Shown here: positions 9,142-40,778 of the stretch, piece by piece
Layout of the letters: each line of letters opens with the position of its first letter
Position numbering within the stretch: the stretch's first letter is position 1
DNA from: Thozetella sp. PMI_491
Lineage: Eukaryota; Ascomycota; Sordariomycetes; Chaetosphaeriales; Chaetosphaeriaceae
Length of the DNA stretch: 64,000 nucleotides
Assembly: GCA_021432635.1 (NCBI GenBank)
Contig: MU270025.1
Span: forward strand, 517,244 to 581,243
Direction: 5' to 3'
Notes under the pieces: model-generated
What the model was told of the DNA's origin: nothing
Seen by the model: only the letters and a program-made list of their open reading frames with translations
Databases searched by the model: none
Program-made: the position numbers and the translations under genes

Positions 9142-11799
9142 TCAAAGATCCTCCTCTCGCCAATTTTGTAGATGTGTTGATGAGGAGATGGTATCTGGAT
9201 GATCTGGACCAAGCACACGCTGCCGAGTCTGAACACATTCCTCCATCAACGACAAAGCCTCAACTTCTCGTCCCAGATCTTTCCATGTCAAGGCAAGATG
9301 AGCCATATATGCCAGCGTATGTGGATGGTCAGGCCCTAGCTTAGCTTTACTGGTCTCCAGGGCCTGTAGCTCGATTTCTTCGGCCTCATTCAACCGGCCC
9401 TGGTAGTAAAACGTGTTTGCCAAGTAGCTCATAGAAGCCAGTGTATTCGGATGGTTGGTCCCTAGAGTAGCCTTCTGGGCCTCTAGAACCTTTATTTGGA
9501 GCTCCTCGGCTTCATTCAACCGGCCCTGGCTGCGGAACGTCGCCGACAGGTCGATCATATGTGTTAGTGTATCCGGATGGTTGGTCCCTAGTTTAGTCTT
9601 CTGTATGTCTAGAGCCTGTAGTTGGAGCTTCTCAGCCTCATTAATTCGGCCCTGGCGATAAAATATAGCAGCCAGATCAGCCATAACGTCTGCTGTGTCA
9701 GGATGAGCCGCCCCTAGCTTGAGTATGCTGATCTCCAGTGCCTGTCGTCCGAGCTTCTCGGCCTCTTTCAACCGACCTTGCTTCCGAAATATTGAAGTCA
9801 AGTCCCGCATGGCGAGAAGAGTATCTGGATGGTCAGTCCCTAGCTTGGACTTGCTGATCTCCAGTGCCTCCAGCAGAAGTTGCTCGGACTCTTTGAACCG
9901 GCCTTGTTTCCGATACGTGTTTGCCAAATTGATCATACTTCTCAGAGTGCTTTGATCATCAACCTGTATCGTGGTCTTGTAGGTCGTGAAAACATGTACA
10001 TCTAATTCCTCGGCTTCTTTCCAACGGCCTTGGGACCGAAATCGGCTGGCTAAATCGGCCATCCTTGATAGAGTGTCTTCGTGGTTAACTCCCAAATTTA
10101 CTTTGCTCAGCTCCAAGACGTGTATTGTCAGCCTCTCGGATTCATTCCGCCGGCCTTGGTTCCAAATTGCGCGTGACAGACCGTCCATGCTTCTCAGAGC
10201 TTTTGGATGGTTGATTTCATAGATCGTCTCACAGGTAATCATTTCTTTATTGTGCATTCTTTCCGCAATTTCGTAGTTTCCCATCCAGTTTGCATACTGC
10301 CCTGCGTGATGCAAAAGGTCTACCCATATCTCCTCCAGATCGCGGTTTGTCGGTCTATAGTCAATGACCAACTCGACATGCGGGAAGAGTGTCTGGCAGC
10401 TCGGCCAATTCTTGTGCTCCGGAACTGGAAATGCTTCAGAGAGCCTCTGGATGCATTTATCTTGGAACTTCTCTTGCAAATGCTTATCCGTTAGCCAAAG
10501 TTTAATGGAAGACTGCACAAGGCTGTGCATAGAGAATAGGTTCCCTGTTGTGTCCAGCGAGATCAGAGAGTAGTCTCTTAGTTTCAAAATGTCATCCTCG
10601 AACTCCGGTTCGGTATCCGTCGAATCCGGTACCGGGCCTCTGGGGTGTATTGCGCCTGCTTCGTAGTTGGAGCCGATGGTATCTGCATCCTCTATCTGCG
10701 CAATGGGCTCCCGGTCCGGTCTAAGAATGGACTCGGGAATGCTCTGTGGGTCGAAAAAAGCCATGAGAGAGAGAAGGTCCACGGCGGATTTCCTTTCGCT
10801 GTATATTTGAGCAATGGACATTAATCCAGTGTTGAGGACGGCATTCGACTGGTCAACGTCACGATGGAGATCTTTCCGAACATTGTTGAGGAGGTGGTTT
10901 CTCCTTTGCTCACTCTCTCCGAAATCGGTTAAATATTTGTGTATTGACATCCTCGGCGCCCTATGAGTGATATACGCTGCAGCTTGACTAAGAGCCAGAG
11001 GAATCCTGTTGAGCTTGTTGATTAGGTCCGCCGCGGCGTTACGGTCGCGAACAATATCCAATTTTTTCTCGAGTAGAGAAAGAGCTTCCGAGGGGTCCAT
11101 TGGTCCAATTTGAATGACATTTGCACTGCCTCCACAAAAGTCGAGACCGATGCTGTAATTGCGTGTCGTGAGAAGAGTAAAGCCATGGCCACTCTGAGGG
11201 ATGTACGACGCCAAGGGGTGTGTCTCTGCCACGTTCCCCGGCGCGTCGAGGAATTGGGTATAGTCATCAGCGCTATCAATAACTAAAACCCATTTTCCGT
11301 TGTGTCTATTCGACAACCACTGGTGGACCAGCCGGCATATGTCCACGCCCTGGTTCGTTCGACCAGGAAGCTTGACATTGTCGGCGATATCCCGAAAAGC
11401 CTTCTCGAACCGTGCGCGCGACGCGGCATGCACCCAAAACACCCAGGTGTCGGGTCTGCTTTCGGCGATACGATGTGCAAAATGGATGGCCAGTTGAGAC
11501 TTTCCAATACCTCCAAGACCGGCCAGGGCTAGACGACCCGGCGGGCCGGAACTTCGCTTGAGTATCTGGTCAAGAAGGTCGCCACGGCTGATGAAGTCGG
11601 GGTTGGTGGAGTAGGGAATGAAACTAGTCGGCTCGGGAGTGTTCTCGGGCAGTTCTATAGAGGTCAGTCTCTGCGACGCACTGAGGACGGATTCGTTGTA
11701 TCCCTTACCTGGTGCATGAAAGTTGTTCGTGACGATCTCTCCGTAGTTCATTCCCGTCACGACTGATTGTTGGGCATGGCCCACGCGCATTTGAGACAT
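9142..11799 (-). CDS. NB-ARC/TPR NLR-type STAND protein with N-terminal amyloid-like motif (885 aa)
   Basis: Signal-transducing ATPase of the fungal NLR type, single exon. The open frame extends to 11850, but that codon is TTG; the first ATG is at 11799 (MSQMRVGHAQ). Residues 10-26 (QSVVTGMNYGEIVTNNF and its preceding Q) sit before the NTPase and match the C-terminus of the divergent neighbour. The NB-ARC follows: P-loop GLGGIGKS (residues 94-101), Walker B WVLVIDSADD (170-179), LLTTRN and an IPLALSQAAAY GLPL-like block. The C-terminal third is about nine 42-residue TPRs with signatures such as QGRLNEAEELQ and LGTNHPDTL, near 9170..10310. In characterised fungal systems, ligand binding to the repeats triggers oligomerisation and the N-terminal motif templates amyloid folding in a partner effector. 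That role is inferred here from architecture and gene arrangement. Confidence 0.9.
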   Translation of the reverse strand: MSQMRVGHAQQSVVTGMNYGEIVTNNFHAPGKGYNESVLSASQRLTSIELPENTPEPTSFIPYSTNPDFISRGDLLDQILKRSSGPPGRLALAGLGGIGKSQLAIHFAHRIAESRPDTWVFWVHAASRARFEKAFRDIADNVKLPGRTNQGVDICRLVHQWLSNRHNGKWVLVIDSADDYTQFLDAPGNVAETHPLASYIPQSGHGFTLLTTRNYSIGLDFCGGSANVIQIGPMDPSEALSLLEKKLDIVRDRNAAADLINKLNRIPLALSQAAAYITHRAPRMSIHKYLTDFGESEQRRNHLLNNVRKDLHRDVDQSNAVLNTGLMSIAQIYSERKSAVDLLSLMAFFDPQSIPESILRPDREPIAQIEDADTIGSNYEAGAIHPRGPVPDSTDTEPEFEDDILKLRDYSLISLDTTGNLFSMHSLVQSSIKLWLTDKHLQEKFQDKCIQRLSEAFPVPEHKNWPSCQTLFPHVELVIDYRPTNRDLEEIWVDLLHHAGQYANWMGNYEIAERMHNKEMITCETIYEINHPKALRSMDGLSRAIWNQGRRNESERLTIHVLELSKVNLGVNHEDTLSRMADLASRFRSQGRWKEAEELDVHVFTTYKTTIQVDDQSTLRSMINLANTYRKQGRFKESEQLLLEALEISKSKLGTDHPDTLLAMRDLTSIFRKQGRLKEAEKLGRQALEISILKLGAAHPDTADVMADLAAIFYRQGRINEAEKLQLQALDIQKTKLGTNHPDTLTHMIDLSATFRSQGRLNEAEELQIKVLEAQKATLGTNHPNTLASMSYLANTFYYQGRLNEAEEIELQALETSKAKLGPDHPHTLAYMAHLALTWKDLGREVEALSLMEECVQTRQRVLGPDHPDTISSSTHLQNWREEDL
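9170..10310 (-). repeat. Tandem 126-bp TPR-coding repeats (about nine units)
   Basis: Each unit codes for 42 residues with the pattern QGRxxEAExLxxxALExxKxxLGxxHPDTLxxMxxLAxxF. Several neighbouring units are also close at DNA level; on the plus strand a ccggccctgg or cggccttg block recurs about every 126 bp. Such near-identical sensor repeats are typical of fungal NLRs, where they can expand, contract and recombine. Confidence 0.8.
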
Positions 11800-11992
11800 G
11801 TTCGCGGCGCAATCACCGACTTTTTGGAAAGAAGACGAACTCGTTATCAAAAGCCTTGTCAGGTTCTAAGTTGTGCATTTGGTCAGTCGGTGGTGCGGCT
11901 GAGCAACTTTTCACGTGCCGGCTGCCTTAAGTTACAACCACTCAGATTCCGCGAGGCCGCCAGCCTGGATACGCGTTACTACCAACATCTCA
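11800..11992. promoter_or_regulatory. Short divergent (bidirectional) promoter between NLR and HeLo-like genes
   Basis: Only 193 bp separate the NLR ATG (11799, minus) from the HeLo-like ATG (11993, plus). Both promoters must lie in or overlap this interval, so coupled expression is likely. No clear TATA box was seen. Confidence 0.6.
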
Positions 11993-12880
11993 ATGGCAGA
12001 TCCGTTGTCCATCACGGCAGCTATTATTGGCATTGCTACGCCAGCGGCCCATGGCGTACGGCTCCTACTAGATGACATTCAGCGCATCAAGGACGCACCG
12101 GCTAATATCAAAGCTCTAGGAAGCGAGCTAGATGCCCTCAATAGCGTTGTCAAGTCGCTTCAGAGCTTGGAGCTGGAGCCTTTGGGTGGTACCATCGCGG
12201 CTCAGGCGCAAGATGCGGAGAGACTATGCGGCGAGTCCTGCGCCAAGTTCCAACAGGACCTTCGTCGCTGGACCCGGCACGGTGATGGCGAAACACTAGC
12301 CTGGCGTGACCAGCTAAAGATTGGCTTCTTCAAGCAGCGCCAGATACAAACCATGTCTACATTGTTGCAGCGCTGTAAAGGAACGCTTTCTCTGGTCCTC
12401 GCTACGGCGACCCTGTGCGTCGACTTGTTGTCCCCTCAAAACTAGCGGTTGCGCTGGCGCGTACTAATACGATATAGTTTCGCCTCCTTGAATGGCGGAC
12501 ACGTCGACAGCAGCACCGTAGGCGCTGCCGCCAACCCAGAAGCGGATATAGCATCTGCGATTGAGGAGACAAATCAGCAGCTTCAGGATGCTGTAGGCCA
12601 GTACCGGGCGCTTGCCAGAGTGAGAAACGATGCCAATGATGATGCCCAAGACAGGAGCAGTGCAGTGGACCAGGTTGTCGACGAGGAGGAGTTTTTGGAC
12701 ATATCGCAGACACTACTCAAAGCTCTGCTCGCCAAGGCCCAAAAGGTGGCTGCGTCAGGGCAAACGGGCGGAGACCGCGTGTCTGTGCAGGTTCAAACCG
12801 CTAATCAAAGCATTGTAAGCGGGATCAACCGAGGCAGCATCAGCTATACATATGGTGGGCCGCAGAGAGGTACTGCCTAG
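11993..12880 (+). CDS. HeLo-like domain protein with C-terminal amyloid-like motif; probable cell-death effector partner of the NLR (274 aa)
   Basis: Exons 11993..12414 and 12478..12880. The 63-nt intron (gtgcgt donor, tactaatac branch, atatag acceptor) joins LVLATATL to FASLNGG in frame. The N-terminus, MADPLSITAAIIGIATPAA followed by HGVRLLLDDIQ, matches the HeLo-like N-terminal domain found on many fungal STAND proteins; here it is free-standing. A helical middle ends in a Q/G-rich tail at residues 238-274 containing QSIVSGINRGSISYTYG (251-267), the counterpart of QSVVTGMNYGEIVTNNF in the adjacent NLR. HeLo-type domains in HET-S and HELL proteins permeabilise membranes after amyloid templating of the C-terminal motif. 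By analogy this is the executioner of the pair. The domain assignment is strong; the amyloid function is inferred. Confidence 0.85.
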
Positions 12881-13416: not shown

Positions 13417-14886
13417 ATGTCGGACGATTTCTTCACTAAGCTCGAGGGTCTGCTCTCTTCCCAGGATGCCGCATATAGCGACGCGGCATCTTTCGTAGCC
13501 AGCCTGGGCATCCCCTCTGCCTCAGTGGCGATTCTGGATAATGGCAGCATTTCGGCGCACACTTTCTCCACAGTTGGTGACGGGACAGACACCTTGTTCC
13601 AGGCGTGCAGCATCTCCAAGCCGATGGCGGGCCTGGCCACGATGAAACTGATTGAGGAGGGCAAGCTCCAACTCGATGATACGCTCCCGCACCTCGTCGA
13701 GCCCGATGTCTGGGCCATCCTCAGCCAAGGCGCGGGCCCAGAGAAGCTGGCTCTTCTCGAGACCGTGACCCTCACCCAGCTCCTCAGCCACACCGCCGGC
13801 TTCTCGATCCATGGCTTTCAGGGCTACGTACCAGGAGCTACTCTGCCGACGGTGCGCGAAATCCTTATCGGTAGGAGCCCGGCCAACACGAGGCCCATCG
13901 AGCTCACCGGCCTGCCGGGATTCTGCCATTCATACTCAGGCGGCGGCTTCACGGTGCTGCAGCTCGTCTTGGAGAAGGCAGCCCAACTACCCTTCCCCAA
14001 GTTAATGCAGAAGCTCGTTCTCGATCCGCTCGGAATGACGCGCTCGTTCTACGCCTTGCAACCTGAGGAGAAGGACTACGCCAGCGCCTACTTCACCGGA
14101 TATACCCCTGCCGATGTTCCTGCGGTCAATATCCCAGAGCAAGCCGCCGCGGGGCTCTGGACCACCCCGAGCGATCTGCTCAAGGCCGTGCACGCAGTGC
14201 AGCTGTCACTCAGCGCGGGTGAAGGGGAAATCACATATCTCCGGCGCGAGATCGCTCAGCAGATGCTCACAGAAGTCGACGGTGGGTACGGGCTCTCCTG
14301 GAGAGCACCGCGTGACAAGGGTGACGGATTCGGCCACTCCGGACAAAACTGGCCCGGCTGGATTTGCTTCGCGTTCGGCTACGCAGACCTAAAGAGCTTT
14401 CTTGGAGACGCACCCGAGGGTGCGGACCCTCTGCTCACGGGGTGCGGGATAAGCATCATGACGAACTCGTGCGAAGGGGCTGAGGGTGCAATGAAGATTG
14501 TCGAGGCAATTGGCTACCTCAAAGGTTGGCCGAATCATCCCCAGATAACCGCAGCCAGGTGGGTGCCGCTGCAAGCTGTTGGGACGGAGACTCCTACGGA
14601 CTGGAAGGAGTGGACCGGGACTTGGGTCGACGACGACAAGAGGGTGTTCACCGTTGCTCACAACTCGGCCGGCCAGCCCACGTTCTTGTTCGCAAAGCTC
14701 CCCCCGCTCAGGCTCGTTCCGGCCGCCATTGTACCGGAGGTGTACAGTGGTAAAGGATCTTCAATCGACCTTAGGATCCCCGCTCTTGAGATGATGATCA
14801 GACTAGGTTGGAATGGAGAGGCTCGGATTGTCCAGGTGTGGTACGGAGGTAACCTCAGTGTGACCGATCTCAAGAAGGCGGATTAA
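13417..14886 (+). CDS. Serine beta-lactamase / penicillin-binding-protein-like hydrolase (489 aa)
   Basis: Intronless member of the class C beta-lactamase family (PF00144 type). The catalytic motifs are in order: SISK at residues 65-68 (S-x-x-K; nucleophile Ser65, Lys68), YSG at 173-175 and HSG at 307-309 in place of bacterial KTG. Family blocks such as LLSHTAGF, DPLGMTRSF and GGYGLSW are present. A C-terminal segment of about 110 residues (from PTDWKEWTGTW) forms the extra lipocalin-like part seen in many such proteins. There is no signal peptide, so it is probably cytosolic. Fungal members include acyltransferases and esterases of secondary metabolism as well as peptidases; the substrate cannot be told. 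A PhzF-like gene follows in the same direction and a methyltransferase after that. Confidence 0.88.
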   Translation: MSDDFFTKLEGLLSSQDAAYSDAASFVASLGIPSASVAILDNGSISAHTFSTVGDGTDTLFQACSISKPMAGLATMKLIEEGKLQLDDTLPHLVEPDVWAILSQGAGPEKLALLETVTLTQLLSHTAGFSIHGFQGYVPGATLPTVREILIGRSPANTRPIELTGLPGFCHSYSGGGFTVLQLVLEKAAQLPFPKLMQKLVLDPLGMTRSFYALQPEEKDYASAYFTGYTPADVPAVNIPEQAAAGLWTTPSDLLKAVHAVQLSLSAGEGEITYLRREIAQQMLTEVDGGYGLSWRAPRDKGDGFGHSGQNWPGWICFAFGYADLKSFLGDAPEGADPLLTGCGISIMTNSCEGAEGAMKIVEAIGYLKGWPNHPQITAARWVPLQAVGTETPTDWKEWTGTWVDDDKRVFTVAHNSAGQPTFLFAKLPPLRLVPAAIVPEVYSGKGSSIDLRIPALEMMIRLGWNGEARIVQVWYGGNLSVTDLKKAD

Positions 14887-15197
14887 GGATTCACGTTTCA
14901 CTGTGTTGGTTGGTAGAATTGTCTTATTTGCTTGTGAGATATTGTTCAGATCTACTAGGTAATCGAAGGGGGTCTAGCATGGCAGGGAGCTTGGATTGTA
15001 GCCCTAGTTTAGCAAGTTCCTTAGAATAGTTATTAAAATACTATAACTAGTTACATGAGTATCTGTGATGTAGTGGGTCCAAGGTGTGCTTCGTGACTCA
15101 CGGTTACCCCACCAGATCTACTAGACAAAAGGCTCCTGATTCCCTCCTCAGATACCAGGCCACGATTCAGCGCTCTATCGTTTATTATTTGCACAAC

Positions 15198-16127
15198 ATG
15201 GCTCCAAGGCTCTCTTTTGTGACGCTCGATGTCTTCACGGAGACCCAGTTCGCCGGCAACCCTGTGGCCATAGTCAAGGTACCTCGAGATGCGGTGCTGA
15301 GGCAGGATCAAAAGCAACGCATTGCGCTCGAGTTCAACTTATCCGAGACCGTCTTTCTTCACGAGCAAACTGAAAGCCAGGCTATCGAAGGAGTCGTCAA
15401 GGCCGACATCTTCAACCCGGTCGCCGAGCACCCCTTTGCTGGTCATCCAACGGTTGGCCTCTCCAACTACTTGCTTCGTCATCAGCCTCCTGAAAGGCAA
15501 ACGCGAATAGTCGCATTACTGCTTAAAGCAGGGCGATTCGATATCAGCCTCAATGAATCCATCGGAGGTATCCAGATTGCGCTAGCACACGCCGTGCATG
15601 TCCACGCCAACCCATCGCTTCTCAAAAGGCTAGGCAATCTCCCAGTTGTTAGTATCGTCAAGGGTATGACGTTTGCACTTGCGAATCTGCCCTCCTTGGA
15701 AGAGCTGGGGAAGCAAACGCAAAATTTAGTAGGTGCCGAGAATACCCACTCCTCGACGTCGCTGCTTGACGAAGGGTGGCAGGCTGGCATGCTGGCGACC
15801 TACTTCTATGTCGAGATGGGTTACGAGAACGGCAGCGACGGAGTCAAGCAACGGAAGCTTCGTACGAGGATGTTCAGCAGACGGGAGGACCCCGGAACTG
15901 GGTCGGCAGCCAGCGCCTTGGTTTCCTTTCTCACGCTGCAGGAAAAGCACCCCGGCAGGTATCGGTATCACCTTATCCAAGGCATTGAGCTAGGGCGGGA
16001 GAACCATATTTATCTTGAAGTGATGGTAAAGCAGAATTCTGTTGGCGGTTTCATGGAGGTTGACCAGGTAGTGCTTAGCGGGCAGGCGGTATTGAATATG
16101 GAAGGGACTGTAGCTATTCCTCACTAG
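15198..16127 (+). CDS. PhzF-like isomerase/epimerase family protein (309 aa)
   Basis: Intronless PhzF family protein. The frame is open upstream to 15084, but the proper start is ATG at 15198 (MAPRLSFVTLDVFTETQFAG), exactly where the family fold begins. Key features are the FAGNPVAIV block, NLSETVFL with the catalytic glutamate at residue 50 (the PhzF Glu45 position), the AEHPFAGHPTVG motif, and DPGTGSAASAL near the C-terminus, which corresponds to the second half-site. Length (about 300 residues) is normal. PhzF proteins are cofactor-free isomerases acting on small acids; most fungal members have unknown substrates. It lies 311 bp downstream of the beta-lactamase-family gene in the same orientation. 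Confidence 0.9.
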   Translation: MAPRLSFVTLDVFTETQFAGNPVAIVKVPRDAVLRQDQKQRIALEFNLSETVFLHEQTESQAIEGVVKADIFNPVAEHPFAGHPTVGLSNYLLRHQPPERQTRIVALLLKAGRFDISLNESIGGIQIALAHAVHVHANPSLLKRLGNLPVVSIVKGMTFALANLPSLEELGKQTQNLVGAENTHSSTSLLDEGWQAGMLATYFYVEMGYENGSDGVKQRKLRTRMFSRREDPGTGSAASALVSFLTLQEKHPGRYRYHLIQGIELGRENHIYLEVMVKQNSVGGFMEVDQVVLSGQAVLNMEGTVAIPH

Positions 16128-16941
16128 GAAACCAGCTTTTCCTCCTGTTATTACCCCGTATCGCCTCCGCCAGTGGCAAATACTTCTCAAGCTCAGGCAC
16201 CGAGCTACCATAGGATCTTGAAACAGCGTTTGGATTACATCGACTTCAAATAACCCCCTTCTGATCTTGCAGGCTCCAGATTGGCTTGAGAAGACCTCGC
16301 TTGGGAGCTAGTTGACGGCTGTTGGGAATACGTGACCACGGTCCGCACCAAGTCTTTACAACAATTCCGTCACAATCAAATCGCCGAGTTGTAGAACATG
16401 CCACGGTGTAAAGTGGTTGATTTGTATACCTCCAGCGGCCTGTTCCTCGCGATTGTTGGCGAATGCAGGCGGCTCGCACAAATAACCCAAGATCTTGAGG
16501 ACCGGTTGAGCCGCAGAACGGCAACAATGTCGAGATCGTCGGGCCTATTTATTTATGCAAGTACTTTATGCACAGTCGGGCCGGAGCAATAGTCACCCCT
16601 TGCTTTCCGTAAATGGCTAGAAGTCTGCAAGATAGGGACCACGACGCTCAGCTTGACCCTGATCCGCACTCATAGGTTCAGCTTTCCTCAACGTCGTATC
16701 GCCCGCATTGTTCACTTTGTAGGTGCAGGCTAAGTGTTTCGCTTGAACGGGTCATCCCGGGGCCGCTGGGTAGCTGCCCAAGGCTCAAGCCTACTCGCCT
16801 TGTTCACAAGCCTCGCCACGTTCTTCTTGCAAAGCCGTACATGCACGCATGATATAATTATTGCCCCACGTATCGCCTAAACACGCTCCTCAGGTTTGAA
16901 GCGTCAAATAAACCGAAGCGCAATTGGCGCAATTGGAAGCA
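16128..16941. other. Intergenic, upstream of the methyltransferase gene
   Basis: No gene recognised; the frames here are short and featureless. Confidence 0.45.
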
Positions 16942-17823
16942 ATGGAGTCGCAAGAGACACCAAACCCGGCACTGACAACTGCCTCGGCGGAGGGGCCGCT
17001 CAGCGGGCCGCAAGAGTCTCTTCTCATCACCTTGTATGCCAAACGTCAAGATTTTCGCTCCCCCAAGCCGCTCCTGGGAGACAAGTGGGCGGCGGACGTG
17101 TTCGAGAAGATGGGAGATATCCAAGACATTGAAACGCGTCTGAAAGGCACCCCAGTCTCCATCACAAGCGTGACAGTGCGCGCACGCTGTCTGGACAACT
17201 GGATCGTCGAGTTCCTGGCCGCGCACCCTACTGCTACTGTGCTACACCTCGCCTGCGGTCTGGACACGCGTGCGCTGCGCCTGCAGGATCAGTGCGGCTC
17301 CGGCGTCCGCTGGATCGATCTCGACCTTCCCGATGTAGTCAAGCTGCGGAGGAGGCTTGCAATGCCGCCGCCGGAGAACGTGGGCGAGTATACTCTCGTG
17401 GGGGCTTCGGCCACGGACCAAGGCTGGCTCGAAGATATCCCTGCCGACCGGCCCACCGTGGTGGTGTTCGAAGGGCTGACGATGTACCTCGCACTAGAGG
17501 ATGGCAAAGCCATGATTCAGCGGCTAGTCAGCTACTTCCCTTCGGGTCAGCTACTCTTCGACTCCATGTCTCCTCTCTCGTTGAAAGTGCTGAATGGGTA
17601 CTTGTATTGGAAGGGGAACTGGAACTTCCGGTTCCACTGGGGAGTTGGCAACCCCAAAGACGTTGAGACTTTCCACGATCGCATCAAACTAATGGACGTA
17701 GTATCCATGTACCATGGCCCAGGTACGGAAGAGCTTCCACTCCAAGGCCGTGTTTTCTTCTATGTCATGTCATGGGTTCCCTATCTGAGTCACTTTTTTA
17801 TCTACCTTAGGTATAAGTTTTGA
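16942..17823 (+). CDS. SAM-dependent O-methyltransferase, TcmP/leucine carboxyl methyltransferase type (293 aa)
   Basis: Intronless. The open frame begins with a TTG at 16924; the first ATG is 16942 (MESQETPNPALTTASAEGPL). The SAM-binding region reads TVLHLACGLDTRALRL, followed by VRWIDLDLPDVVKLRR, which is diagnostic of the LCM/TcmP O-methyltransferase family (PF04072). RPTVVVFEGLTMYL corresponds to motif III. N-terminal YAKRQDFRSPKPLLGDKWA is also typical. The C-terminus ends in a hydrophobic stretch, FFYVMSWVPYLSHFFIYL, which may contact membranes or a hydrophobic substrate. In fungi such enzymes often methylate polyketides or small acids. It is convergent with the FAD monooxygenase immediately downstream, which suggests a tailoring pair in a small metabolic cluster. 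Confidence 0.88.
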   Translation: MESQETPNPALTTASAEGPLSGPQESLLITLYAKRQDFRSPKPLLGDKWAADVFEKMGDIQDIETRLKGTPVSITSVTVRARCLDNWIVEFLAAHPTATVLHLACGLDTRALRLQDQCGSGVRWIDLDLPDVVKLRRRLAMPPPENVGEYTLVGASATDQGWLEDIPADRPTVVVFEGLTMYLALEDGKAMIQRLVSYFPSGQLLFDSMSPLSLKVLNGYLYWKGNWNFRFHWGVGNPKDVETFHDRIKLMDVVSMYHGPGTEELPLQGRVFFYVMSWVPYLSHFFIYLRYKF

Positions 17824-26413: not shown

Positions 26414-28748
26414 CTACTGAACCTTCAGATATCCCGCCATGTTGGCTTGCTCTTCGGGATGCACCACTCGCGTCGCTAGTGGCAGGCTCGCCGACGATGT
26501 AAGCGCCTCGGCCTCGTCGGAAACGCCTATTTCGGCCGCCTGTGCGGCCTTTGCGAGGTTGATGACCGGCAGCTCCGACATGTGTACCTTGGCCTGACCG
26601 TAGGGCACGAGTGTGTAGGTCGCCTTCTTGCCGGTGCAGGTCACGTTCTTTGGTGGCACATCTGGCGTGGCACCGAAACGTAGGGTCCAGTTGAGGGCGC
26701 AGCCGTCGACCGAGATGTGTCCGGCATCAAGGCCGGGGACGAACGGAACGACGGGCGAAGACGCAGGGGCGTGGTATTTGAGCGTTGAGGGATCGATCGC
26801 GATCGCCCACTCACCCTCTCCATAAAAGTAGTAGTCTCTGGCCTGGCTGAAGGGCACATCTGGGATCGGGGGCCCGCCGGCATCGTAGAAGTGGTGCGGC
26901 AGCGAGCTGATGTTTGCCACGGGGGAAGGGTCTAGCGCATACAGGACACTCCCCACATAGACTGATACGGCGCCATTCTCGCGGGCCTCGGTGCGCACGT
27001 CGGCCCCCAGCTTATAGGTGACAGTGCTCTTACCACTTGGAAGCCCGACCTGTACGAGTCCCCCTGCGCTGTCCTGCTGGAAGCTTTCCTCCTTCGATCC
27101 GATAATGGTGTGGACTTCGACGAACGTCGCCCACCCTGGCACACGGAGGCGGAGCGAGAAATTGGCGTCCGCACTGACACTATATGTGAAGGTATTCACG
27201 AACGGGTAGTCGGTGGCGCACTCGATTGTCACGTTGCCGACCTTCAAGCTCGCAGTGACGGTCGACGGTGAGAGGAGAGCGTGTATGAGCGTTTTGTCGT
27301 CTACAACGGCCCAGCTGTTGGACAGGAACTTGGGGAAACCCTGTGGGTGGTTCACGGTGCAGCATGGGTACATCGGCTCCATGCCAAACGTTGTCGCTAC
27401 CCCCCAGGCCGAGGTGGTGAATACCTGGGGGTAGGAGCTGGCGACTGCAGAATTGTTGGTCCACGGGCCGTTCGGCTGGTCCATGTACTGGTGTCCCCAA
27501 TGATCCGTCGTCAGCATCACGGGCAGGGCGTTGAAGATGGCGCGCTCGGCCCTGTCAGCGTACTGGTTGACGCCCAGGCTAAGGTAGAGATACTCGAGCG
27601 AATATGCCGTCTCCACGGCGGTGCAGAGTTCGCTACCGGAGTACGAGGCGAGATCGCGCATGATCTCGTCGGCGAGCACGGTCCCGGAGGGCGCACCGTG
27701 GTACTGAAACGTCCATTCGACGGCGTTGTTAGTAGTTTGCAACAAGCTGCTGTTGTGCGTAAAGCGGTAGATAACGGCGAGGGACTTGAGGCCTGCGGCA
27801 AGTCAGCACCCTTCCTACTCGTCCATTACCTGGGACAATGCCTACCCTGGCCGACATTGACGCCGTGCAAGAAGGCGAACAAGGGGTTCCCCGTGGTCGG
27901 ATCGGTGATCACCTTCTGATACGTGCCTTCGGCATACCACGAGTCCCAGCGGAACAGCGTCTGGTTGAACAGCATGTTCATGTTGTCCCACAGCAGCGCG
28001 TCGCTCTTTGGGTCCGGGTGATGCTCGAGGAGCCACTGGATGGAGATAATCAAGTCGTGGTAGCGGACCTGGCCCCATGAGCAATCTATGCCGGTCCCAC
28101 AGTCCGTGAAGCCCTTGCCGCCGTCGCTGAGCATCGAGTGGGTTATATTTAAGAAGGAGCGCATGCTAGCCACGATGCGCCCCTCGTAGGCGGGATCAGC
28201 CTCGGCCAGCTGAGTGAGAGCGAGCAACAGAGGCGAGCGCGCCCAGAGGTTTCTAGCATCGCCGACCTCGGGACCGAGCCACCCGTCGGAGGCCTGAAAG
28301 CCCAGGATCGTGTCAACGACTGTCTGAACCTGCTGCTTGAGGCGGGTGTCGTTGAGCCCGTACGCGAGGGGCACTAGCCCGTTCAGCCAGTATGGCAGCG
28401 CCTCGTTCAGCGAGCTGTAGTCGTTGCCTGCATTGGAGCCGGGCGTGTGGAGCCAGCGTGAATCGGCGACGAAGGGATAGAAGTCCGCCTCGTGCCCCGC
28501 CAGTCCTGCGGCCGACTTTTGCATTTCCGCCAAGAGCCAGCCCCCAGGCTGGACCGAGCCGAGCGGTAGAGGTGTGAAGCTCCATGGAATCACTAGGCGG
28601 CGTGAGAATTGGGCTGATAGACGAGCCGGCGGCGGCCGGGAAAATACCACTTACAAGTCTGTCCAGAGCCTTGGGCGAGGATAGGGACAACAGCCGCTGA
28701 CCAGAGCGCGGAACGAAGCCAGCGCGCCGGCCAGCTTGGGGTGGTCAT
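26414..28748 (-). CDS. Secreted GH127-type beta-L-arabinofuranosidase (739 aa)
   Basis: Exons 28748..28655, 28592..27846 and 27792..26414 (introns 62 and 53 nt; phases close). The ATG at 28748 gives MTTPSWPARWLRSALWSAAV, a signal peptide ending near residues 25-26. The body is the DUF1680/GH127 alpha/alpha-barrel: GGWLLAEMQKSAAGL, ASDGWLGPE, WGQVRYHDLIISIQWLLEHH, then SGSELCTAVE and PMYPCCTVNHPQGFPKF. Glu335-Leu-Cys337 and Cys424-Cys425 reproduce the Glu/Cys/Cys/Cys zinc site of bifidobacterial HypBA1, in which one of the paired cysteines is the nucleophile. A C-terminal beta-rich domain follows. The likely role is release of beta-L-arabinofuranose from plant glycoproteins or oligosaccharides outside the cell. 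The family call is secure; substrate is inferred. Confidence 0.9.
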
Positions 28749-39776: not shown

Positions 39777-40778
39777 CTATATCGCCCCGTCGTCTTGGAG
39801 GCCGGCCACGGGCTCCGCAGCTACGATGTAGCCGTTGTTGCTGGCGGTGACAAGGCCCTTGTACCAGATGTTGGCCATCATGCGGTAGCCGTTGTCGTTT
39901 GGATGCGTCTGGTCGTGCATGTCGTCCATTCCCGGGCCATCGGTGCCGTGCATCTCGGCGTACACAATGCGCCGGTTCTGAGCCTGCAGCTTTTCAACGA
40001 GGGCCTTGTACTCTGCGTTGACGACAAGCACCCTGCTGTCGACGGTGGCGTTGGTGTTGATGATGAGGGAGCTGAGTATGACAGTGGCCTGGGGGCTCAT
40101 GCTGTAGAGGTCGAGCACCATGCGCTCCATGCGGTCGCTGGCGCCGGTGATGTTGATGTTCCCTAGGCAGTCGTTGGTGCCCGCGTTGATCAAGATGACA
40201 TTGGGCTTGGAAAGCGGCACCGCGATCTGCGCTTTCGCGTGCACCGAGTCGATGATGAAGCCAGGCCAGCCCTCGACATCATTGTCGCGCATGGTGCCGT
40301 GCTGCCGGGTGCCCACCATGTTCACGGCGTTGCCGCCGGACACGAGCTGGTCGCGGAGGCTCCCACGGTAGCCGTTGCCGTCTGTAGACGCCTGGCCAAA
40401 GGTGATGGACGCGCCCAGCGGCATAATACGCAGCGGCAGAGCATTTGCAATAGGCGACAGGGCGCGTGCTCCCAGGTTGTTCATGTTGACCGCCACGCCC
40501 GAGTGAAAGAGGGGCGTAGCGAACGCTTTACAACAACATGTTAGCTCTGTGTTGTTCAATGGAGTGCAGTTCAGTATTGTGTAGGTCAGAGTTGTGCACG
40601 TCGTGATGCACAGCGTCGTGGCGCTTAGCACTCGTGATATTCGCCTAGAGACCGGTCCACTTCATGCATGTGCTATTCGTCGTCGACATCAAGTCTCCTG
40701 GGGAGGGAAGATGGACGACAAGAACCCGTTGGGAACGACGCAGGGGGGGGGTTGCTCACCTAAAAGTAGGGCATTCAT
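39777..40778 (-). CDS. Secreted SGNH/GDSL-type hydrolase, CE3-like (255 aa)
   Basis: The main exon is 40525..39777. Its frame reaches 40631, but there it starts with GTG and is Cys/Thr-rich without sense. An upstream mini-exon 40778..40760 (MNALLL) joined across a 234-nt intron (gtgagc donor, gctaac branch, aaag acceptor) gives MNALLLAFATPLFHSGVAVN, a plausible signal peptide. Catalytic blocks: PLGASITFG with Ser46, AGTNDCLG with Asn124, and DQTHPNDNGY with Asp211 and His214. The order and spacing match SGNH hydrolases and specifically carbohydrate esterase family 3-like acetylxylan esterases. Expected role: deacetylation of plant polysaccharides outside the cell. The enzyme family is secure; the mini-exon is less so. 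Confidence 0.82.

Follow-up and report, generated by a model that had tools for sequence, protein, structure and literature searches.

The DNA discussed here is a 64,000-nucleotide window of contig C11 in the 72.3-Mb genome of the fungus Thozetella sp. PMI_491. It contains two head-to-head genes, one encoding a NOD-like receptor (NLR) and the other an effector with a HeLo-like domain. Their ATGs are 193 bp apart, and the genes share this upstream region (11800..11992). The NLR bears a short tag at its N-terminus that is matched by a tag at the effector's C-terminus. A preliminary description had proposed just such a divergent pair, with matched motifs placed as in known amyloid signalling pairs of fungi. 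The Pfam domains, the gene spacing and the pattern matches described below support it.

The NLR gene, which is PNT1-like, occupies 9142..11799 on the minus strand. Its frame begins with the ATG at 11799 and encodes 885 aa if unspliced. The short tagged N-terminus is followed by an NB-ARC domain (10873..11562, minus strand; residues 80-309 of the 885-aa frame) and an array of tetratricopeptide repeats (TPR). In Pfam, NB-ARC scores 24.1 bits, barely above the cut-off of 23.5, and the repeats match TPR_10 (E 3.6e-88) and TPR_12 (E 4.2e-65). Downstream of the tag lies a predicted 54-bp intron (11655..11708, minus strand; nt 92-145 of the open reading frame) that reads GTAAGG...CTGACCTCTATAG, is in frame and is free of stops. 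This intron is very likely present and spliced; thus, the protein should be 867 aa long, not 885. Over the residues following the tag, the spliced form aligns without gaps to a second NLR of this genome, found on contig C15.

The effector gene lies on the plus strand. Exon 1 (11993..12414) encodes the HeLo-like domain (PF17111) with a hydrophobic N-terminus, and exon 2 (12478..12880) encodes the end of the helical domain, a linker and the C-terminal motif. The 63-bp intron between them (12415..12477; nt 423-485 of the open reading frame) reads GTGCGT...TACTAATACGATATAG. Joining 11993-12414 to 12478-12880 yields a protein of 274 aa, in which PF17111 spans both exons (residues 2-187; 79.6 bits against a cut-off of 27.2). 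The public model of this effector, GQ53DRAFT_854000 (P0001), has 257 aa and is otherwise identical. The difference is one splice: 51 in-frame nt (12815..12865, plus strand) are called an intron, and removing them reproduces P0001 letter for letter. Pfam finds no further domain common to the NLR and the effector, in agreement with the view that the two proteins are otherwise unrelated.

The NLR-side motif is QSVVTGMNYGEIVTNNF (residues 11-27; 11719..11769, minus strand) and the effector-side motif is QSIVSGINRGSISYTYG (residues 251-267; 12806..12856, plus strand). Translation confirmed both at the residues first reported for them. Eight codons of the motifs, in the NLR the first eight, can be written as the DNA pattern CARWSNRTNGTNWSNGGNRTNAAY. 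It stands for Q-[ST...]-[IVM]-V-[ST...]-G-[IVM]-N, with WSN admitting a few additional residues. The whole genome contains two matches, both at this locus, and no match to the reversed pattern. The pattern was composed post hoc from the two motifs and, by our own estimate, about 0.5 match is expected with uniform bases. Because of this, its weight rests on the matches being an NLR N-terminus and the C-terminus of the adjoining effector. The best ungapped score between the two termini is 44, a value attained in 0/5000 double shuffles (maximum 38).

The nearest known motif is PP, a RHIM-like amyloid motif of fungi. Its canonical form is N-x-G-phi-Q-phi-G-x-x-N/x-G-x-[IV], where phi is a hydrophobic residue. 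The effector tag reads N-Q-S-I-V-S-G-I-N-R-G-S-I and the NLR tag Q-Q-S-V-V-T-G-M-N-Y-G-E-I. Relative to the canonical form, both have exchanged G for S, Q for V and the following hydrophobic residue for S or T, and both retain G-phi-N-x-G-x-I. The core in both partners thus reads S-[IV]-V-[ST]-G, replacing G-phi-Q-phi-G. MAFFT aligns ANQSIVSGINRGSIS of the effector without gaps to NSGIQIGVSNGPIS of its relatives, which is the PP position. The effector tag therefore has the position and register of PP in its own right, and the NLR tag has them through its match to the effector.

The strict PP definition (a G-phi-Q-phi-G core, or NxGxQxGxN) calls for residues that S-I-V-S-G and S-V-V-T-G do not supply. 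Neither partner has the PP core, and the tag therefore falls outside the strictly defined PP motif. The RHIM core, (I,V)-Q-(I,V)-G, has no Q at the corresponding site in either partner, and Pfam gives no RHIM match. HRAM motifs of the HET-s type come as a pair of repeats at the C-terminus of the effector; this effector has one copy, and HRAM was rejected, in keeping with the preliminary description, which saw no obvious HRAM. PUASM, defined by FxGxGxQxxGxGxF and a PNP_UDP effector (PMC9815663), was also rejected, as the pattern is absent and the effector belongs to PF17111. Pfam gives no match to the sigma motif, but models this short overlook divergent members.

The preliminary description had placed the motif closer to the PP and RHIM class, which the PP tags at the same gapless position in homologous effectors support. 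It had also left the motif outside any named family, and here the comparison leads further. The effector tag is best read as a rewritten PP motif, not as an unrelated new family, because PP occupies the same gapless site in homologous effectors, the architecture is that of PNT1/HELLP and the introns lie at nearly identical positions. The pair has a PF17111 effector, an adjacent NLR with NB-ARC and TPR, and a common tag at both termini. By descent and architecture, as read from sequence, the locus is a PNT1/HELLP pair; by definition, its tag is not PP.

Homologue searches returned 16 proteins at first and then 136, of which 120 are listed. Leaving out P0001, 65 of the database matches listed are 220-420 aa long and entered a census; 57 of these have a tag region. 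At the PP glutamine site, Q is found in 52/57, and V, E, L, A and M once each. The first G is G in 56/57 and S in 1/57, and strict GxQxG occurs in 49/57. Beyond the window, the combination of S and V is found only in P0002, an environmental relative on a 1.3-kb contig, with the tag ANQSIVSGVNRGTISYSY. Where HELLP has its intron, the frame of P0002 continues through a stretch that resembles an in-frame intron, which would be normal for a gene called on raw fungal contig DNA. Four further effectors lack the Q, each substituted differently: P0007 has E, P0010 L, P0029 A and P0053 M.

A tree was built from 62 effectors after removal of the last 35 residues, which include the tag. The window effector and P0002 form a group with support of 100/100, and this group is nested in a set of 10 rows with support of 99/96. 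The other eight rows of the set have Q in seven cases (five with strict GxQxG) and M in P0053, and the nesting indicates descent from PP-bearing HELLP effectors. As the root was placed at the midpoint for drawing, it is the nesting among PP bearers that indicates which way the core changed. On this tree of aligned sequences, the altered core is derived within the canonical PP effectors.

A derived core could also be a decaying one. The pair may descend from PP bearers while its motif degenerates, its amyloid function being lost and the likeness of the two tags being a residue of common ancestry. The loss of the core residues Q and G, the long stem branch of 0.68 ahead of the window and P0002, and the omission of the tag from the public model would all fit. 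However, decay would not yield the same three substitutions (S, V and S/T) in both partners. The tag of P0002 is identical to that of the window effector at 15/18 positions, compared with 131/247 in the remainder. A motif that varies while the rest is conserved had been named beforehand as a result that would speak against the proposal, and this one relative gave no such result. The NLR tag also scores 55 with P0002, 44 with its own effector and 38 with an orphan exon on contig C105, and the other 64 effectors reach at most 37. Decay is therefore an unlikely explanation.

A second head-to-head pair of a HeLo-like effector and an NLR is found on contig C15, with 180 bp between the ATGs and the tags NITFGDYNKGVQIGGNVSGPINNTVN and SFGSHNYGVQVGGSHLGTINNTIH. 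It resembles the pair in the window in its layout and introns (the effector intron is at nt 426-474), and the nucleotide-binding domains of the two NLRs are 50% identical. In contrast to the window, the C15 tags retain the canonical PP core on both sides (YGVQVGG and KGVQIGG), and the two effectors align badly across the tag. The TPR part of the C15 NLR (L037) contains a run of N, so this NLR cannot be read through.

The locus is likely to be a cell-death switch of the PNT1/HELLP type, in which both tags have the same altered PP form and the receptor is predicted to template the tag of the effector. The steps can be proposed by the same logic as for the HET-S, HELLP and HRAM systems. The NLR would sense a ligand via its TPR repeats and oligomerise via NB-ARC. 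The clustered N-terminal tags would then nucleate a beta fold, and this fold would convert the tag of the effector. Finally, the HeLo-like helical domain would be released to act at membranes.

The altered core is best explained by a PP pair having diverged in concert to become a specificity variant without Q. We infer that both tags changed together to remain compatible. Since the same altered core is found in both partners, the pair likely runs a private death signal, and a prediction is that insulation may separate this channel from the C15 pair with its canonical PP tags. A further proposal is more tentative, with odds somewhat short of even. The tags could represent a Q-less class of RHIM/PP amyloid in which the three substitutions common to receptor and effector have swapped polar and hydrophobic places along the core strand (Q-phi to V-S/T), forming a private prion strain that would not cross-seed the C15 pair. 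In that case, the fungus would operate two PP-derived death channels, insulated from each other, in addition to those based on HRAM.

Such a variant would matter because the glutamine-centred G-phi-Q-phi-G core is what connects fungal PP with mammalian RHIM. A conserved pair whose partners have both abandoned the Q core, in a genome that also has an intact PP pair, amounts to a natural experiment on the residues of signalling amyloids and on the origin of cross-seeding barriers.

Several observations weigh against a rewritten PP tag that acts as a switch. The NLR tag is not recognised as PP when taken alone: its best score with a PP position-specific scoring matrix is negative and out of register, and 12310/20000 shuffles equal it. 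What ties it to PP is the effector, together with synteny. The effector tag is itself only modestly recognised by the same matrix (293/20000 shuffles equal), and the public model P0001 is without most of it. Because Q is not invariant among the relatives, its loss may be tolerated rather than act as a switch. The tag is not the sole conserved part of the window and P0002 alignment, in which 19/248 windows, many of them overlapping, are conserved equally. No NLR partner was found for P0002, and a search with the N-terminus of the window NLR returned only itself. The preliminary description had counted a failure of the pair to recur in orthologous loci against its proposal; on the effector side, which this check covers, the motif recurs in P0002. 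For the public form of the effector, AlphaFold predicts an all-helical structure with a mean predicted local distance difference test (pLDDT) score of 73 and a weak N-terminus. Foldseek gave no match for it at E <= 0.001 and singled out neither MLKL nor HET-S, MLKL being absent among the matches listed. Kinship between HeLo-like domains and MLKL is described elsewhere (PMC7885112, PMC12881547).

The tag might alternatively serve as a short beta-strand or docking peptide that joins NLR and effector stoichiometrically, with no self-propagating fibrils. The residue thought to form the polar ladder of PP and RHIM is indeed absent in both partners. Yet the homologous site in Podospora HELLP is an experimentally demonstrated prion region, which also kills (PMC7885112), and the composition rich in G, N and S/T is retained. 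A contact of this kind is very unlikely, and templating of one tag by the other is preferred.

The splicing-out of the effector tag in the public model is probably wrong. It is very unlikely that 12815..12865 is a real, perhaps alternative, intron, leaving the effector untagged or toggling between responsive and unresponsive forms: a GTAAGC donor, a CAG acceptor, a length divisible by three and the public model speak for it, but no branch point is obvious by eye, the stretch matches the NLR tag and its protein sequence is conserved in P0002, and Podospora HELLP has one intron, at another site (PMC7885112). The gene model of Podospora HELLP likewise needed manual reannotation. Automatic annotation may conceal such tags in other loci, as it probably did here, and pairs of this type will be missed by searches keyed to the Q core and by gene models that excise the tag.

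Other relatives are scattered through the genome. The orphan on contig C105 (L079, C105:73874-74254, minus strand) is a frame resembling the second exon of a HELLP relative, with the PP-type tag NKGVQAGINHGTIHNTF; zinc-finger-like frames lie upstream, and no HeLo-like first exon is listed nearby. L051 (C69:125445-126362, minus strand) is an NLR relative interrupted by 15 TAG and 12 TAA codons, 27 stops in all, as if repeats here had undergone C-to-T mutation. Upstream of it, a PP-like stretch is still discernible. Two more NLRs, L041 (C14:294583-295512) and L042 (C14:628-1557), are 46-49% identical to the nucleotide-binding domain in the window, and no PP-like tag was seen in the 420 bp upstream of either. 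Two HRAM proteins are tabulated for Thozetella (PMC4518210).

Elsewhere in the window, Pfam identifies a beta-lactamase-type hydrolase (13417-14886), a PhzF-like protein (15084-16127), an LCM methyltransferase (16924-17823), a GH127-type protein (26414-27745) and a GDSL lipase (39777-40631).

Among known systems, HRAM pairs such as NWD2/HET-S provide a precedent for concerted divergence, as the tags of NLR and effector are described to change together (PMC4518210). They differ in having two 21-residue effector repeats that form a beta-solenoid, whereas the window has a single short tag (PMC4518210, PMC5485727). Insulation also has a parallel: cross-seeding is described as absent among the tags of HET-S, HELLF and HELLP (PMC7885112). 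Mammalian RHIM proteins (RIPK1/RIPK3) correspond by position, via PP, and differ in the core that both partners of the window lack. In Chaetomium globosum, PNT1, HELLP and SBP likewise form a tag-based NLR and effector system, which is instead a cluster of three genes with a second, lipase effector and canonical PP (PMC7885112, PMC5485727).

The closest counterpart is PNT1/HELLP of Podospora anserina. There, too, an NLR with NB-ARC and TPR adjoins an effector of some 270 aa with a HeLo-like domain, and a tag is common to the NLR N-terminus and the effector C-terminus (PMC7885112). The Podospora core is G-phi-Q-phi-G and that of the window S-[IV]-V-[ST]-G. The gene structures agree closely: the only intron of PNT1, 54 bp long, is at nt 95-148, compared with nt 92-145 in the window NLR, and the only one of HELLP, 47 bp long, is at nt 429-475, compared with nt 423-485 in the window effector (PMC7885112).

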